Source: Tindallia sp.
Lineage (GTDB): Bacteria; Bacillota; Clostridia; Peptostreptococcales; Tindalliaceae
Assembly: GCA_007134225.1 (NCBI GenBank)
Contig: SLLE01000025.1
Coordinates: 1 to 49,309, forward strand
Direction: 5' to 3'
DNA length: 49,309 nt
Shown here: positions 2,664 through 10,231 of the stretch, piece by piece
Layout: each line of letters begins with the position of its first letter
Position numbering within the stretch: the first letter of the stretch is position 1
Notes under the pieces: generated by a model
The model's input: the letters and a program-made list of their open reading frames with translations, nothing else
Databases searched by the model: none
Told to the model about the DNA's origin: nothing
Position numbers and translations under genes: made by a program

Positions 2664-4700
2664 TTGAAACGGGTGGAAACCATTTGTGGCTATTGTGGAT
2701 GTGGTTGTGGAATTTACGTGAACGTTGCGGAAGACGATACGGTTCTCGGGATCACACCAAGTTACAACCATGTAGTTAGTAAAGGAAAACTGTGTTCAAA
2801 AGGCTGGCACGGTTATGCATTTGTCAGAGATTCCAGACGGCTGACCAGTCCACTGATTCGGAACAGTGATGGCAGCTTTCGGGAAGCTGACTGGGACGAA
2901 GCCTTAGACAAGGTGGCTGAAGGTTTAAAAGCAGCTACGACAGCAGGTGATAACACGGACCACATTGGTTTGATTTCATCAGCGCGATGTACTAATGAAG
3001 AAAATTTTCTGATGGCAAAACTGGCACGGGCTGGACTCAAAACCAGCAGCATCGATCATTGTGCCCGGTTGTGACACAGCCCAACGGTGGAAGGTCTTTC
3101 TACTTCATTTGGGACTGGTGGTGCAACTAACACAATGAATGACATAAGTGATGCTGAGTTAATTATAGTGATTGGATCAAATACAACAGAACAGCATCCC
3201 CTGGCAAGCACCAGAATTTTTGAAGCGCTGGAAAAAGGGGCTGAATTGTATGTGGTTGATCCCCGCAAAATACGACTAACAGATTTTGCGCATGCCTATG
3301 CAGCGATTGAACCAGGAACAAATTTACCAATGATCAATGCCATGATCCATGTCATCATTGAGGAAGGGTTGATCAATAAAGAGTTTATTGAAAAAAGGAC
3401 AGAAAACTATGAAGAAATGAAAAAGTCCGTTGCGGACTGTACACCAGAATGGGCGGAATCCATCTCAAGAGTTCCGGCAGAAACCATTCGACAATTTGCC
3501 CGCAAATATGCCACTACGGACAAGGCCATGATTCTTTTTACAATGGGTGTCACGCAGCAAACAACCGGCGTGAAAAGTATTCGTGCCCTGGGGAATTTAG
3601 CGATGATTACGGGCCATGTTGGAAGACCATCAACAGGAATTAACCCTTTACGTGGGCAAAATAATGTTCAGGGAGCCGGCGACATGGCGGCATTGCCGGA
3701 TTATTTGCCCGGCTACCAACGACCTGAATGGCCGGAAACCAAAGAGCGATTCACCAAGGCATGGGGTGACTTTTCATGCCTGCGTGGTAGAAATATAATC
3801 GAAATGTTTAACTTAATGGAAGAAGGTACGATGAAAGCCGCTTACATCGTAGGTGAAAATCCTGTTCTTTCTGATCCAGACCAGAACCACACGATTCAAT
3901 GCCTTGAAAAGGTACCATTTTTAGTTGTTCAGGATATCTTTTTAACAGAAACGGCTCACTATGCCGACATTGTGCTGCCGGCTGCCAGCTTTTTGGAAAG
4001 AGAAGGAACGTACACGAATACAGATCGGCGAGTTCAGATGATTCACCCGGTGATTAGTCCAGTTGGAGACTCTAAACCTGACTGGGAAATCATAACCGAA
4101 ATTATGAAACGTATTGGAATGAATGTGGATTATCAGTCCCCTTCTGATATCATGGATGAGATCAATTCGACCACGGATCTTTATGGCGGTATTACCCATG
4201 AACGCATCAAGAAAGTGGGAATCCAATGGCCGTGTCCGACAAAAGACCATCCAGGAACACCAATTTTGCATGTTGGTGAATTTATACGGGGAAAAGGATT
4301 GTTTACGATTAATGATTTTGAATTTTTGGGAGATCAGCGAAGCGATGAATATCCATTTCTCCTGACAACCGGCCGAGTCACTCATCAATATCATACCGGT
4401 ACCATGACGCGAAAAGTATGGACCTTAGCACTGGAATACCCTCATGGTTTCGTAGAAATTCATCCAAAAGACGCTGAAGAATATGGAATACAAATGCATC
4501 AGCCGGTAAAGATTACATCAGCAAGAGGTAGCATTACAGCTCCTGCAATGGTTACGGATAGAATAAACGAAAAAACACTGTTTGTACCTTTCCACTTTGC
4601 TGAATCGCCGGCAAATCGATTGACTGGACAAAATCTCGATCCTATTATCAATATACCTGCGTTGAAAGTCTCCGCGGTAAGAATTGAGGTGGAACAATGA
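2664..4700 (+). CDS. fdhF: Formate dehydrogenase, catalytic alpha subunit, selenocysteine-containing
   Basis: A 678-residue molybdopterin (Mo or W bis-MGD) oxidoreductase that oxidises formate to CO2 or does the reverse. The N-terminus carries the [4Fe-4S] motif C8-x2-C11-x3-C15 with C44. An in-frame TGA at 3072-3074 falls exactly where the family has its catalytic Cys/Sec (DHCARL-U-HSPTV, residue 137), and a SECIS-like hairpin follows, so the gene is one intact selenoprotein, not two fragments. The C-terminal molybdopterin-dinucleotide-binding domain shows GRVTHQYHTGTMTRK. Length is close to E. coli FdhF. Translation starts at TTG 2664 behind GGGAGGGA at 2651. The stop overlaps the next start as ATGA, which implies translational coupling to its electron-transfer partner. 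No promoter could be assigned with confidence in 2557-2650. Confidence 0.95.
3072..3103 (+). promoter_or_regulatory. Sec UGA codon and bacterial SECIS element of fdhF
   Basis: The UGA is at 3072-3074. GTGGAA at 3087-3092 pairs with TTCTAC at 3098-3103 (one G-U) and exposes the apical loop GGTCT at 3093-3097, 18 nt after the UGA. The E. coli fdhF SECIS has the same GGUC-type loop bound by SelB at a similar distance. The pairing is read directly; SelB recognition is inferred. Confidence 0.88.
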
Positions 4701-6631
4701 AAAACATGAAGCGGTATAAGCTTAACAGAGAAAACTTGGATCAGGTGCTTAATCAATGGAACAGAAAGACAAAAGTCTATGTTCCGACAGGGGAAGGAAA
4801 AGACATTAGCCTGATGCCTTTGTTGGAAGGTCAACGAACCGAGGATTATATTAACTTGACTTTGCCGGTGAAAGAATTTGTTTTTGAGCAAAAAGAGAAA
4901 TTATTCAGCTGGGAAAAAAATGATGATGATCTTGAAGTCACTAATCTTGCGCATCAACATGCAGCTGAGCGAATTTTATTCGGTGTACGGGCCTGTGACA
5001 CTTATGGCATTGCGTTCACGGATCGATTTTATCTCCAGGAATTTCTGGATCCAAACTACCGATCACGAAGATCCGGCACAACGATCATAGCTGTAAACTG
5101 CTTGCGTGCTGGTGAACATTGTTTTTGCACGTCGATTGGTACCGGCGTTTTTTCCACGGTAGGATATGATATTGCCCTCACACCACTGGGCTCGATTTAT
5201 TTGGTGGAAGTGGCCACACAAAAAGGCCAGGCTCTTATTGATGCTGCAGCATTGCATTTTACAGAAGCGGAAGAAAGCCTGATGGAAAAAAAAGATGCTT
5301 TGCGACTGCAGGTTGAAGAAAGCTTTCCATTAAAAATGGACCTTAGCAATTTGTGGGAGGATATGGCAAAAACCTTTGACGCGGATTTTTGGCTTAGAGA
5401 AGCGAATGCCTGTATTGCATGTACAGGGTGCACGAACGTTTGCCCCACTTGCACCTGCTTTAATGTTGTGGAAGAGAATAAGAATTTAAATAAGGGTGAA
5501 CGTGTTCGTTACTGGGATTCCTGCCAAAGTGAACATTTTACAAGAAATGCGGAACATCACAATCCCAGGGATGCCGTTTCCCGAGTTCGATATCGGATTT
5601 ATGATAAGCTGAAATATATTGAAGAACGGTTTGGTTATAAAGGTTGCTCTGGCTGCGGACGTTGTACGGATGTCTGCCCTACCTATATTAGCATTATCGA
5701 TATTATACATGCAACGCAAAAGGCTGTAAGGGAGAATCAAACCCCAGCTGCAGTACACCAAACCACTAAAATACGTCATGAAATAATAGATAGAGAAATT
5801 AATATGAAAAAAGGACTCTATACACCCGATATTGCAACGATTACACGTGTCAAACAGGAGACGCCTGAAATAAAGCGAATTTTTATGAAATACGATGACC
5901 CAGAGCTGCACACCAATTACGAATATAAGGGTCAATTTTTTCAGGTGACCGTGTTTGGAGAAGGAGAAGTGCCGCTTTCTATTCCTTTCGGACCGGATCA
6001 TACAGATGAGTTTGTGTTTGATTTTAAAAATGTGGGAAATGTTACCAATGTTTTGTATCACATGAAAGAAGGAGATCAAGTAGGACTTCGTGGTCCTTAC
6101 GGACATGCATTTCCCTATAACGCCCTGAAGGGACGGAATTTGATTTTTGTTGGTTCAGGAGTTGCCATGGCACCGCTTAGGACTGTGATCGAGCCTGTGA
6201 TCAAAAATCCGAATGATTTTCAACAGATAATTATTCTTGCCAGTGCCCTTCGATATGAAAAACTGATCTATAAGGATGAAATGAAGGAATGGGAAAAAAT
6301 TGAAAACGTTAACATAAAATATGCTTTGAAAGATCCTTCCGATCATATTGATGCCCACATCGGTTATGTAAATGACTTGTTGCCTGACCTGGGTTTGAAC
6401 TGGACAAACACGACAGCGCTGGTTTGTGCATCCCCTAAACGGATTAAGAAAGTAGCCAGAGATTTAATGGATCTGGGCATGAAACCTTCGGATATATTAG
6501 TAACGCTGGAGACCCATATGCGCTGTGGTGCTGGGAAGTGTGGACATTGTAAAGTTGGAAGTCATTACATGTGTGTGGATGGACCAGTTTTTACTTACGA
6601 AGAAATGATGGCATTACCGCCCGAATACTAG
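4697..6631 (+). CDS. Fused AsrA/AsrB-like iron-sulfur flavoprotein, formate dehydrogenase electron-transfer subunit
   Basis: A 644-residue fusion of two normally separate subunits. Residues 1 to about 370 resemble anaerobic sulfite reductase subunit A and the beta subunit of sulfhydrogenase, with a dicluster ferredoxin pattern: C239-x2-C242-x2-C245-x3-C249 and C317-x2-C320-x2-C323-x3-C327. Residues about 385-644 resemble AsrB/HydG, a ferredoxin-NADP-reductase-like module with the FAD-side motif RGPYGHAFP near 465, the nucleotide loop GSGVAMAPLR near 487-496, and a C-terminal [2Fe-2S] set C610, C615, C618, C626. It overlaps fdhF by 4 nt, so it is very probably its redox partner, shuttling electrons between formate and NAD(P)(H) or ferredoxin. 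Which carrier it uses cannot be read from the sequence. The protein is predicted soluble. Confidence 0.88.
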   Translation: MKNMKRYKLNRENLDQVLNQWNRKTKVYVPTGEGKDISLMPLLEGQRTEDYINLTLPVKEFVFEQKEKLFSWEKNDDDLEVTNLAHQHAAERILFGVRACDTYGIAFTDRFYLQEFLDPNYRSRRSGTTIIAVNCLRAGEHCFCTSIGTGVFSTVGYDIALTPLGSIYLVEVATQKGQALIDAAALHFTEAEESLMEKKDALRLQVEESFPLKMDLSNLWEDMAKTFDADFWLREANACIACTGCTNVCPTCTCFNVVEENKNLNKGERVRYWDSCQSEHFTRNAEHHNPRDAVSRVRYRIYDKLKYIEERFGYKGCSGCGRCTDVCPTYISIIDIIHATQKAVRENQTPAAVHQTTKIRHEIIDREINMKKGLYTPDIATITRVKQETPEIKRIFMKYDDPELHTNYEYKGQFFQVTVFGEGEVPLSIPFGPDHTDEFVFDFKNVGNVTNVLYHMKEGDQVGLRGPYGHAFPYNALKGRNLIFVGSGVAMAPLRTVIEPVIKNPNDFQQIIILASALRYEKLIYKDEMKEWEKIENVNIKYALKDPSDHIDAHIGYVNDLLPDLGLNWTNTTALVCASPKRIKKVARDLMDLGMKPSDILVTLETHMRCGAGKCGHCKVGSHYMCVDGPVFTYEEMMALPPEY

Positions 6632-6639
6632 TAGCATTA

Positions 6640-6677
6640 AAAAGGCCCGATTTCTCAACTGAGGAATCGGGCCTTTT
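6640..6677 (+). terminator. Terminator of the formate dehydrogenase operon
   Basis: AAAAGGCCCGATT pairs with AATCGGGCCTTTT around a short loop, ending in TTTTCTTG. It is a strong rho-independent terminator 9 nt after the stop codon. Confidence 0.92.
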
Positions 6678-6728
6678 CTTGATAATTAGCCATTTTAATT
6701 GAAAGTCACCGCTCATAAAGCAATTATC

Positions 6729-6737
6729 TGTTATAAT
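6729..6737 (+). promoter_or_regulatory. Extended -10 promoter upstream of the YczE-like gene
   Basis: TG-T-TATAAT at 6729-6737 is a consensus extended -10 element. There is no good -35 at 17 nt. It lies about 60 nt before the start codon and downstream of the FDH terminator. Confidence 0.6.
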
Positions 6738-6797
6738 ATAGAAGGTTGGAAGAATTTGTAATAAAGACGTCAACATAACAAAACGGAAGGAAGATGA

Positions 6798-7445
6798 ATG
6801 ATGGACGTCATTAGCATAACTAAGCGGATGATTGTCTATATAACAGGGTTGTTTCTGCTGGCCTTAGGGGTAGCTTTTTCAATAAAATCCGGTTTGGGTG
6901 TCTCTCCAGTATCATCATTTCCCTATGCAATTAGCCTGGTGCTGGAAAGAGACGTTGGACTAATGTCAACTGTTGTGTTTACATTTTATATACTGATACA
7001 AATTTTACTGCTGCGACGAAATTTCGAGTTAAAAAATTTTCTGCAACTGGCTGTTGCCAGCATGTTTGGCTTTTTTGTCTCCGCATCTATGGCGTTGATT
7101 ATACCGCTAAACCCTGTTAGTTATCCTTCCAGGCTGGCATTCTTGGTTATCAGCCTGTTTTTAATTTCTACCGGGATTATATTCTATCTGACGGCCAATA
7201 TAGTGTCTATGCCGCCAGAAGGCATGGTACTGGCTATACAAAAGACAACAGGGATTCCTTTTTCAAAAGTGAAAATAATCTTTGACAGTACCAGTGTTTT
7301 ATTGGCGGCAGTTTTACTGATGAGCTTTGTCGGGAATCTTCAAGGGTTGAGGGAAGGAACACTTTTGGCAGCCTTTGGGGTTGGACGCCTTATTGGTTTT
7401 CTCTCAAAATGGTTGAGGCCTATCCTAATTTCTTTCATTAAATAA
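6798..7445 (+). CDS. YczE/YitT-like integral membrane protein
   Basis: A 215-residue, strongly hydrophobic protein with about five membrane segments. Its N-terminal region (GLFLLALGVAFSIKSGLGVSP) is the hallmark of the YczE/YyaS membrane family, whose function is poorly known. In Bacillus, YczE has been linked to non-ribosomal peptide production. The start is one of two tandem ATGs (6798 or 6801) after GGAAGGAAG. It is a single gene with its own promoter, converging on the nitrilase gene with an 8-nt gap. I can assign the family but not a substrate. Confidence 0.75.
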   Translation: MMDVISITKRMIVYITGLFLLALGVAFSIKSGLGVSPVSSFPYAISLVLERDVGLMSTVVFTFYILIQILLLRRNFELKNFLQLAVASMFGFFVSASMALIIPLNPVSYPSRLAFLVISLFLISTGIIFYLTANIVSMPPEGMVLAIQKTTGIPFSKVKIIFDSTSVLLAAVLLMSFVGNLQGLREGTLLAAFGVGRLIGFLSKWLRPILISFIK

Positions 7446-8434: not shown

Positions 8435-8486
8435 TTTAATCTGTGGGTAGATTGGTGGATATTTTTTTAGAGGGAGGAAAGAAATC

Positions 8487-8807
8487 ATGAATATTGAATT
8501 AACGGAAGAACTTTTGCAGCACTTAAATCATCGCAACATAGATGCTGTAACAATTGAAAAAGACACGCGTCAATTTTGTTGAGCTGCACCACAAATGCCT
8601 TTGGTAAAGGAAAAAAAGCCGAAACAAACAGAAAATTATCGTCAAACTCTGAATCAAGGAATTACTCTTTACGTTCATCATGAACTAAAATATACTGGTA
8701 AAACGCTTAAAATTGGAATCAAAAAAATTCTTTGGCTGACAAACATTTATGCCTTTGATCCTGAAACTATTTGTCTCTGTGGTGGGTATTATAAAGAAAA
8801 GGGATGA
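8487..8807 (+). CDS. Small selenoprotein with Cys-Sec motif (CC/Se motif family candidate)
   Basis: Reading from ATG 8487 (GGGAGG at 8472, spacing 9) gives 31 codons, an in-frame TGA at 8580-8582, then 74 more codons to a TGA at 8805: 106 residues if the first TGA is selenocysteine. The motif is QF-C31-U32-AAPQMP, with a second pair C96-x-C98 (ICLCGG) near the C-terminus. It fits, as far as I recall, the protein family named for a CC motif whose second Cys can be Sec. A hairpin with an exposed GGT loop 20 nt after the UGA acts as a SECIS candidate, and the host clearly uses Sec (fdhF). A standard gene finder would call only the 3' part from 8595, or nothing. Function is unknown; a vicinal Cys-Sec suggests redox or metal/selenium handling. 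It heads the run leading to the SLH protein and desulfurase. Confidence 0.8.
8580..8610 (+). promoter_or_regulatory. Sec UGA and SECIS-like hairpin in the small selenoprotein gene
   Basis: The UGA is at 8580-8582. CCTTT at 8598-8602 pairs with AAAGG at 8606-8610, leaving the tri-loop GGT at 8603-8605. The exposed GGT lies 20 nt past the UGA, compared with 18 nt for GGTC in the fdhF element of this same window. SelB binding is inferred. Confidence 0.7.
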
Positions 8808-8830
8808 TGAATCAAGACGGAGGGATTAAT

Positions 8831-10231
8831 ATGCTTATTAGAATATTGACAGGCATCTTGCTTATACTGACAGTTTTAGCGCCTATATCGGCTCATGGTA
8901 TTTTTAGTGATACCCGTGATCACTGGGCAGATGATCATATTTTCTGGGCTACATTTGATTATCCGGTATTTAGTGGTTATCCGGATGGAACATTTAGGCC
9001 TGAGAATTCAATTACCAGAGCAGAATACCTTACTATGATCAATAAATTGCTGGCGCTGGCCAATGATCCTTACCAACAGAAAACGACTGAGAGAATATCC
9101 TATCGGGACCTTTATGAAAATCATTGGGCCTATTCCCATATTCAGGCTGCGCATCAGAGCATCGAAGGCGCCACACACAACGACATATCACTTACTGAAG
9201 TGTTTTCTGGTCCGCTGTTTGAGCCGGAAAAAAGAATCAGTCGCTATGAAGCTGCTTTAGCAAGTCATGCAATTTTATCACCGGAAACTGATCAGCGGGA
9301 TTCGCAATTGAACAATCTATGGGATCTGGACGAATCGGATCCCAACAGCCAATACATTCAGGAATTGGAAACGAGAGGGATCATTAGTGGATTTCCGGAT
9401 GGGAGTTTCAGACCGGAGGCACCCATCACAAGAGCGGAAGCTGCAGCACTCTCCAGAAAAATATTCGAAGACCTGGAATATTTAAAAGAAAATTTTCTGA
9501 CCCCAATACCGCTTATCGAGATGGATTTCTCAGGATACCCGGTTTTTAGCATGGCTACCATGGATGAATCCACGGACAATCATCGTCGCTTTATTGATGC
9601 AGTCACGTCTTTGGAATATATAAGCATCGTCGGATTTATTCCCTACGAGGAACGTGCTTTATATGATCCAAACCCGATTGAAACGTTATGGGAGCTAAAA
9701 GAGGGCGGCTATCAAAATGAGCTGGGAATTAGTTACTACCTGATAAAATATGATGATAGTCTATCGCAACAGGAGAAGCGCGAGCTTGCAAACGATGCAA
9801 TTAACGCGTACCTATTGTTACCAGTAGAACAGGTGGACGGAATGAGTGCATTCTTTAAAATAACAAAGGACATATCAAACCCGGATCTTTTTCAACAGGG
9901 AGCCGAACGATATCTGGAGGCTGTTTCGGATGAAGAAAAAATGCTTCGAACCATAAACCTGTTGGCGGAGCATTATCAACGTCAAAATTTATGGGACTCT
10001 GCTGAAAATATTTATCACAAGGCGATTCGTCAAACAAATGAAGTAGGCATTATTAAGAATGCGATGCAGAATCTTGCCTATACCTCCCTTCAACACAGAA
10101 GCACTGAAGATACAATTCAATTGATGAATGATCACCGCATGTCTATACTGGATGCGACAACAACTTCTGGAGACTGGGAGGCACTTCATTTTAAGCTGGA
10201 AGCAATACAAAAGCAATTGCTGCTTCAGTAG
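8831..10231 (+). CDS. Secreted SLH-domain protein with helical C-terminal region
   Basis: A 466-residue exported protein. A signal peptide spans residues 1-22 (hydrophobic core after MLIRILTGIL, cut probably after ISAHG or SAH). Three S-layer-homology repeats follow at about 25-70, 89-148 and 163-210; the first and third show the typical SGYPDGTFRPE...ITRAE and SGFPDGSFRPE...ITRAE cores, while the middle one is degenerate. SLH domains anchor proteins to pyruvylated secondary cell-wall polymer. The rest (220-466) has no domain I recognise; residues 355-430 look helical and TPR-like. The start at 8831 has GGAGGG at 8819-8824; an ATG at 8804 overlapping the upstream stop would add nine residues before the signal peptide. 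It follows the selenoprotein gene by 23 nt. Confidence 0.88.
   Translation: MLIRILTGILLILTVLAPISAHGIFSDTRDHWADDHIFWATFDYPVFSGYPDGTFRPENSITRAEYLTMINKLLALANDPYQQKTTERISYRDLYENHWAYSHIQAAHQSIEGATHNDISLTEVFSGPLFEPEKRISRYEAALASHAILSPETDQRDSQLNNLWDLDESDPNSQYIQELETRGIISGFPDGSFRPEAPITRAEAAALSRKIFEDLEYLKENFLTPIPLIEMDFSGYPVFSMATMDESTDNHRRFIDAVTSLEYISIVGFIPYEERALYDPNPIETLWELKEGGYQNELGISYYLIKYDDSLSQQEKRELANDAINAYLLLPVEQVDGMSAFFKITKDISNPDLFQQGAERYLEAVSDEEKMLRTINLLAEHYQRQNLWDSAENIYHKAIRQTNEVGIIKNAMQNLAYTSLQHRSTEDTIQLMNDHRMSILDATTTSGDWEALHFKLEAIQKQLLLQ

Follow-up and report, generated by a model that had tools for sequence, protein, structure and literature searches.

A CC/Se motif family selenoprotein of Tindallia and its probable kinship with IscA/HesB proteins

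A reading frame interrupted by a single TGA may encode one selenoprotein or be the remains of two dead fragments, and if it is read through, the question becomes what kind of protein it makes. Such a frame lies at 8487..8807 of the window, i.e., the whole 49,309-nucleotide stretch of Tindallia sp. DNA analysed here (all features of the gene lie on the + strand). A ribosome-binding site read from the sequence (GGGAGGAAAG, 8472..8481) precedes the ATG at 8487, from which 31 codons lead to the sole in-frame TGA (8580-8582) and a further 74 to a TGA stop (8805-8807). With the UGA read through, the predicted product has 106 residues and a mass of about 12 kDa. It includes adjacent Cys31 (TGT) and Sec32 (TGA) codons (8577..8582) and, towards the C-terminus, the codons for C96-L-C98 (8772..8780), a tail that the alignment shows to be specific to one clade. 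The next gene, encoding an SLH-domain protein, begins with an ATG at 8831, 23 nt past the stop, behind its own ribosome-binding site GGAGGG. The layout of the initial annotation thus holds throughout, from the well-led ATG and the lone UGA directly after the Cys31 codon to the 23-nt gap and the C-terminal CxC. No terminator was found around the gene, nor any convincing promoter.

Such a gene is easy to overlook because annotation halts at the UGA. Frame statistics alone are not striking: the window contains 14 TGA-interrupted frames of this size, mostly overlapping other genes, and it is conservation that lifts this one above chance.

Decoding of the in-frame UGA

That the product of 8487-8807 is a selenoprotein is hardly in doubt, because a conserved UGA or Cys codon, the selenocysteine machinery, a downstream hairpin and purifying selection past the UGA all agree; readthrough rather than two dead fragments, the reading of the initial annotation, is borne out by the same evidence. 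Two of its proposed checks, a homologue search across the UGA and a genome search for selA, selB, selC and selD, both came out in favour. Homologues align across the site and carry UGA or Cys there: matches with a single TGA at this point occur in 11 of 41 genomes of relatives, NF041239 matches in 29 of 291 genomes of the class and matches to a clade profile in 47 of 398 genomes of the phylum, the places in both surveys mostly having one TGA. Among Cys forms the nearest is that of Anoxynatronum buryatiense (L076), which carries TGT at the UGA site and falls inside the clade of the window protein. All four sel genes are present, in the order selD (itself a selenoprotein gene with an in-frame TGA), selA, selB and selC within 4.6 kb on contig C143 (selA 599 bits, selB 397, selD 397, tRNA-Sec 72 against a gathering threshold of 47), and selB was found in all five relatives tested. 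A general reassignment of UGA to another amino acid was set aside, as selC is present and UGA terminates the CC/Se gene itself. The gene is in fact closed by a tandem TGA TGA (8805-8810), though the organism reads UGA as selenocysteine.

The codons after the UGA are, judging by substitution ratios, under purifying selection, with dN/dS of about 0.10 in two pairs (L003 vs L004; L001 vs L002) and 0.2-0.3 in two further ones, dS being near saturation in every pair except L003-L004. Frameshifts or deletions across the UGA, named beforehand as counter-evidence, are absent from all five close relatives read (L002-L006).

The SECIS-type hairpin CCTTT-GGT-AAAGG, whose exposed GGT had been noted initially, occupies 8598..8610, the first base of the stem being the 16th after the UGA and the loop beginning 20 nt after it. 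Counting hairpins with a stem of at least 4 bp and a G in the first two loop positions, a loop start at exactly 20 nt was found in 23 of 32 Sec members and in none of 12 Cys members. The two arms covary, with 53 of 55 pairs formed against 39 when arms were shuffled and none of 20,000 shuffles as good, a figure that is not a strict probability since the sequences share ancestry and the arm register was picked for each loop class. The Cys gene of A. buryatiense retains CCTT/AAGG arms and has lost the loop G pair (TCTGTC), as expected after a change from Sec to Cys. The geometry agrees with the bSECIS model (a loop 16-37 nt past the UGA, with G in its first two positions), while the energy of about -3 kcal/mol falls short of the published threshold of -7.5 kcal/mol or lower; according to a selenoprotein review, a subset of selenoprotein genes lies outside this model. 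Folding of the post-UGA region by itself was no better than that of shuffled sequences. The hairpin being weak in energy, its support is comparative, from positional conservation and covariation. SelB and tRNA-Sec would then decode UGA 8580 as selenocysteine, aided by this hairpin 16-28 nt downstream.

A formate dehydrogenase (FDH) alpha gene in the window (2664-4700; TIGR01591, 788 bits) also has an in-frame UGA, at 3072, followed about 18 nt downstream by a GGTC-loop element (GAA-GGTC-TTT, read by eye), so that the initial description of a shared layout was fair. Taking this FDH as a Sec context in support of the small gene proved weak and incidental, as two congeners keep the CC/Se gene with no FDH adjacent, and its proximity was dropped as support.

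Family membership and a probable Sec-Sec sister branch

Membership of the product in NF041239, the CC/Se motif family to which the initial annotation had assigned it, is practically certain. With Sec entered as Cys in the query, the match reaches 49 bits (E 4.7e-13; cut-off 40) and runs from residues 1-88 to profile positions 1-87 of 91, i.e., across the UGA; from raw DNA it still reaches 44.4 bits. The defining Cys-Cys or Cys-Sec pair is found as C31-U32, aligned with the CC or CU of homologues. The family is thus known already and the window gene is a new member of it: in a 2026 catalogue of selenoproteins from prokaryotes it appears as a hypothetical protein with a single Sec and no assigned function, first predicted in Moorella thermoacetica, the table giving neither fold nor relatives (PMC13188914).

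The same genome holds two further family genes, one with CU and no tail (L016, C11:24552-24827) and one with CC beside a YeiH-like putative transporter (L022, C109:4889-5152), as well as a HesB-like selenoprotein with Sec (L098, C133:10314-10565). Elsewhere, a Cys form and a UGA form of the family stand next to each other as a tandem pair (G365:C17:28933-29489), and in one branch (L048, L049, L052, L053, L073) Sec keeps its position but is followed rather than preceded by Cys (GGUC), so that, judging from the alignment, the partner Cys can flank Sec on either side.

The class survey also revealed at least nine places with two in-frame TGA codons. Taken over the class and phylum surveys, TGATGA stands exactly at the CC/Se position in 18 genes from 18 genomes (L071, L132-L138, L140-L148, L152), L069 being a further, different UU; in one of the searches for this branch the query was an L134-based sequence with a few residues changed, used for searching only. 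Judged by the distance to the prolines downstream, it is the second U that corresponds to Sec32. A hairpin with a G-bearing 4-nt loop (CCCATCG-GGTT-CGATGGG and variants) begins 21 nt past the second UGA in 15 of the 18 genes and 20 nt past it in two, and for L141 another hairpin came first in the scan; the distinct arms form 48 of 48 pairs against 43 when shuffled (p about 0.0003). U-to-C versions of four of the proteins score 37-45 bits against NF041239, and selB is above cut-off in all host genomes. On these features the branch appears to make a vicinal Sec-Sec protein and deserves separate study; the 2026 selenoproteome table (PMC13188914) contains no UU motif.

Probable relationship to IscA/HesB proteins

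The present analysis adds a relationship that the initial annotation did not contain: it indicates that the IscA/HesB proteins, which carry Fe-S clusters, have a distant offshoot in the CC/Se family. A first suggestion of this superfamily came from cousins of the window protein, which weakly match TIGR01911 HesB_rel_seleno (E 1.3e-4) and NF038090 IscA_HesB_Se, and from PF01521, which matches two NF041239 members below its cut-off of 26.3 (23.0 and 20.8 bits; E 2.3e-4 and 9.5e-4 per genome). The window protein itself gave no match to PF01521, nor to TIGR01911 or NF038090 at E up to 1, and Pfam searches with single members returned sub-threshold matches only (TPR-S and others; PF01521 at E 0.16).

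Aligned by hhalign in a comparison of profiles, 44 CC/Se members and 14 HesB-like proteins match with a probability of 96.8% (E 2.8e-10, 90 columns), and of 96.9% when the clade of the window protein is removed, against a maximum of 14.6% in 100 column shuffles; the match was repeated with a 10-sequence family alignment, and Sec32 is aligned precisely with the Sec found in HesB-like proteins. The latter in turn match IscA at 98.7%, and the CC/Se family matches four IscA/SufA sequences directly at 74%. The six CxC members alone gave no significant match to the four IscA sequences, nor did IscA turn up when the clade profile was searched against the PDB by sequence only; since these clade-only comparisons fail, the link to IscA runs through the wider CC/Se family.

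Structure prediction makes an IscA/HesB (A-type carrier) fold very probable for the window protein. A first AlphaFold model, from an alignment of four sequences (window, L074-L076) with Sec modelled as Cys, reached pLDDT 83.2 and pTM 0.75, three of the five models in that run being poor. For this predicted structure Foldseek ranks 1-12 are filled by chains of the IscA/SufA type (among them 1x0g_A, E 3.3e-4, prob 1.00), by DsrR and by a single integrative model, the first unrelated chain following at E 0.37. A VIA search gave ten entries at Z 5.1-8.1, the next at 2.8, with 1r94_A at Z 8.1 and an rmsd of 3.8 over 91 residues; the alignments behind the models are shallow and a best Z of about 8 is middling. 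The PDB matches are IscA, SufA, HI1723, AQ_1857 and their relatives, with nothing unrelated near, and a second model with a natural Cys protein placed first (pLDDT 87.0) returned the same ones.

As for the C-terminal tail, six members—from the genome itself, three congeners and two genomes of a sister genus—extend past NF041239 with DP[ED]T[IV]C-L-C-[GS]-G and form a single Tindallia/Anoxynatronum clade (support 0.95). Most members lack the tail, and none of the others inspected carries it; a scan of clade peptide patterns over about 85,000 species genomes found this clade only, in a set from which near relatives of the window may be missing. IscA ends in NP....C-G-C-G-x-S-F (checked against 1R94), a likeness that suggests an IscA-like ligand pair in the tail and could also be convergent. 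The tail is predicted with low confidence (pLDDT <50). Sec32 is placed at the loop position through the HesB-like alignment, and C96xC98 would correspond to the IscA pair by motif resemblance plus this low-confidence tail.

Possible function and comparison with known proteins

In A-type carriers a loop Cys, together with a CxC at the C-terminus, holds the metal or Fe-S cluster. In the Tindallia protein Sec32 would replace the conserved loop Cys, with Cys31 adjacent, and the CxCGG tail of the clade would sit about where the C-terminal CxC of IscA does; Sec32, Cys31 and the tail thiols might then make up a chalcogen-rich site for binding and passing on a metal, an Fe-S cluster or a related species, as in A-type carriers. 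Taken whole, i.e., as a CC/Se selenoprotein with an IscA/HesB fold acting as a divergent, A-type-carrier-like metal or Fe-S binder, this explanation is the probable one by a modest measure, and for carrier-like binding by itself the chances appear evenly balanced. A PF01521 search of the same genome (97% complete, 199 contigs) detected no IscA/SufA, the HesB-like selenoprotein on C133 being the sole match, so that selenoproteins may stand in for IscA, an absence that is no proof in an incomplete assembly. A wider proposal is put forward tentatively, at somewhat less than even chances. In it the family is an IscA/HesB branch with a Cys-Cys, Cys-Sec or Sec-Sec pair at one site (Sec-Cys in one branch) and would be a carrier of metal or Fe-S species tuned by selenium; the clade of the window protein would possess every IscA-like ligand and one more, and the UGA-UGA branch, with its one hairpin, would be a natural vicinal di-selenocysteine protein.

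Gene context does not decide function, since neighbours are not conserved. The order YczE - (nitrilase) - CC/Se - SLH - NifS-like cysteine desulfurase - ThiI - MoaC - MogA is kept in four genomes of the genus, FDH and nitrilase not being adjacent to the gene in two of the four, and the context in the sister genus differs. NifS-ThiI-MoaC was dropped as a clue because the association, kept within the genus, is not seen around the gene in the two Anoxynatronum-type genomes. Outside the genus the context offered no Fe-S clue, and no neighbour is conserved across the family, the best counts being for a FAD-dependent HI0933-like protein and a PPIC isomerase. In both genomes of the sister genus the CC/Se gene is followed, on the opposite strand, by a gene for a short protein that contains a hydrophobic segment and is similar in the two (L075, about 6885-7304, -; L076, about 6380-6865, -), the L075 copy having no Pfam or NCBIfam match.

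Among other functions for the same selenoprotein, a redox role is the best contender and still an unlikely one: retaining the fold and carrying no cluster, the vicinal Cys31-Sec32 selenenylsulfide would cycle with the tail CxC in disulfide/selenosulfide exchange or peroxide reduction. The vicinal pair together with the second Cys pair of this clade would suit such chemistry, the L005 gene lies near thioredoxin-reductase-like and thioredoxin/glutaredoxin-like genes (judged from their sequences) and uncharacterised selenoproteins are mostly presumed to be redox proteins (PMC13188914); however, the predicted fold is IscA-like rather than thioredoxin-like, and most family members lack the CxC tail. 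Binding or detoxification of soft metals, organometals or selenium species, with no part in Fe-S assembly, is less probable again. CU motifs do recur in the catalogued organometal- and metal-binding selenoproteins SaoL, SaoC, HgcA and MbdU, and genes for an ArsR-type regulator and a heavy-metal ATPase-like protein (again judged from sequence) lie upstream in L076, but there are no such genes near the window copy and the context is not conserved. The reading of the UGA as a true stop between two remnants retains almost no probability, since the 14 TGA-split frames in the window and a hairpin not stable on its own, which would suit it, are outweighed by a UGA or Cys codon that holds its position from genus to genus, purifying selection past the UGA, the covarying hairpin and the Sec machinery.

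With the carrier-like reading, a hypothetical catalogued selenoprotein family gains a testable fold and ligand set. A HesB-like selenoprotein was identified in Methanococcus maripaludis by mutagenesis and 75Se labelling, its function being unclear (PMC11097638); if the CC/Se protein carries metal or Fe-S clusters, this would hint at the role of these likewise unexplained proteins.

Compared with known systems, the window protein is closest to NF041239 Moor_selen_rel, with residues 1-88 above the curated cut-off and CU at the CC/Se site, and differs from it by about 18 extra C-terminal residues bearing CxC[GS]G. With the HesB-like selenoproteins (TIGR01911, NF038090) it shares a similar length, the predicted fold and the position of Sec, in UxGP there as opposed to UAAP in the window protein (UAGP in L005, CAGP in the Cys form L076), whereas the partner Cys beside Sec sets it apart; most HesB-like proteins seen here end in at least one Cys without the tail motif of the window protein. 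With IscA/SufA (1R94, 1X0G, 2D2A; PF01521), finally, identity is about 10-18%, beyond detection by single-sequence or Pfam search, and Sec stands in place of Cys, while the predicted fold, the putative position of the loop Cys and, close to the C-terminus, a resembling motif of [ND]P with C-x-C after it are held in common.
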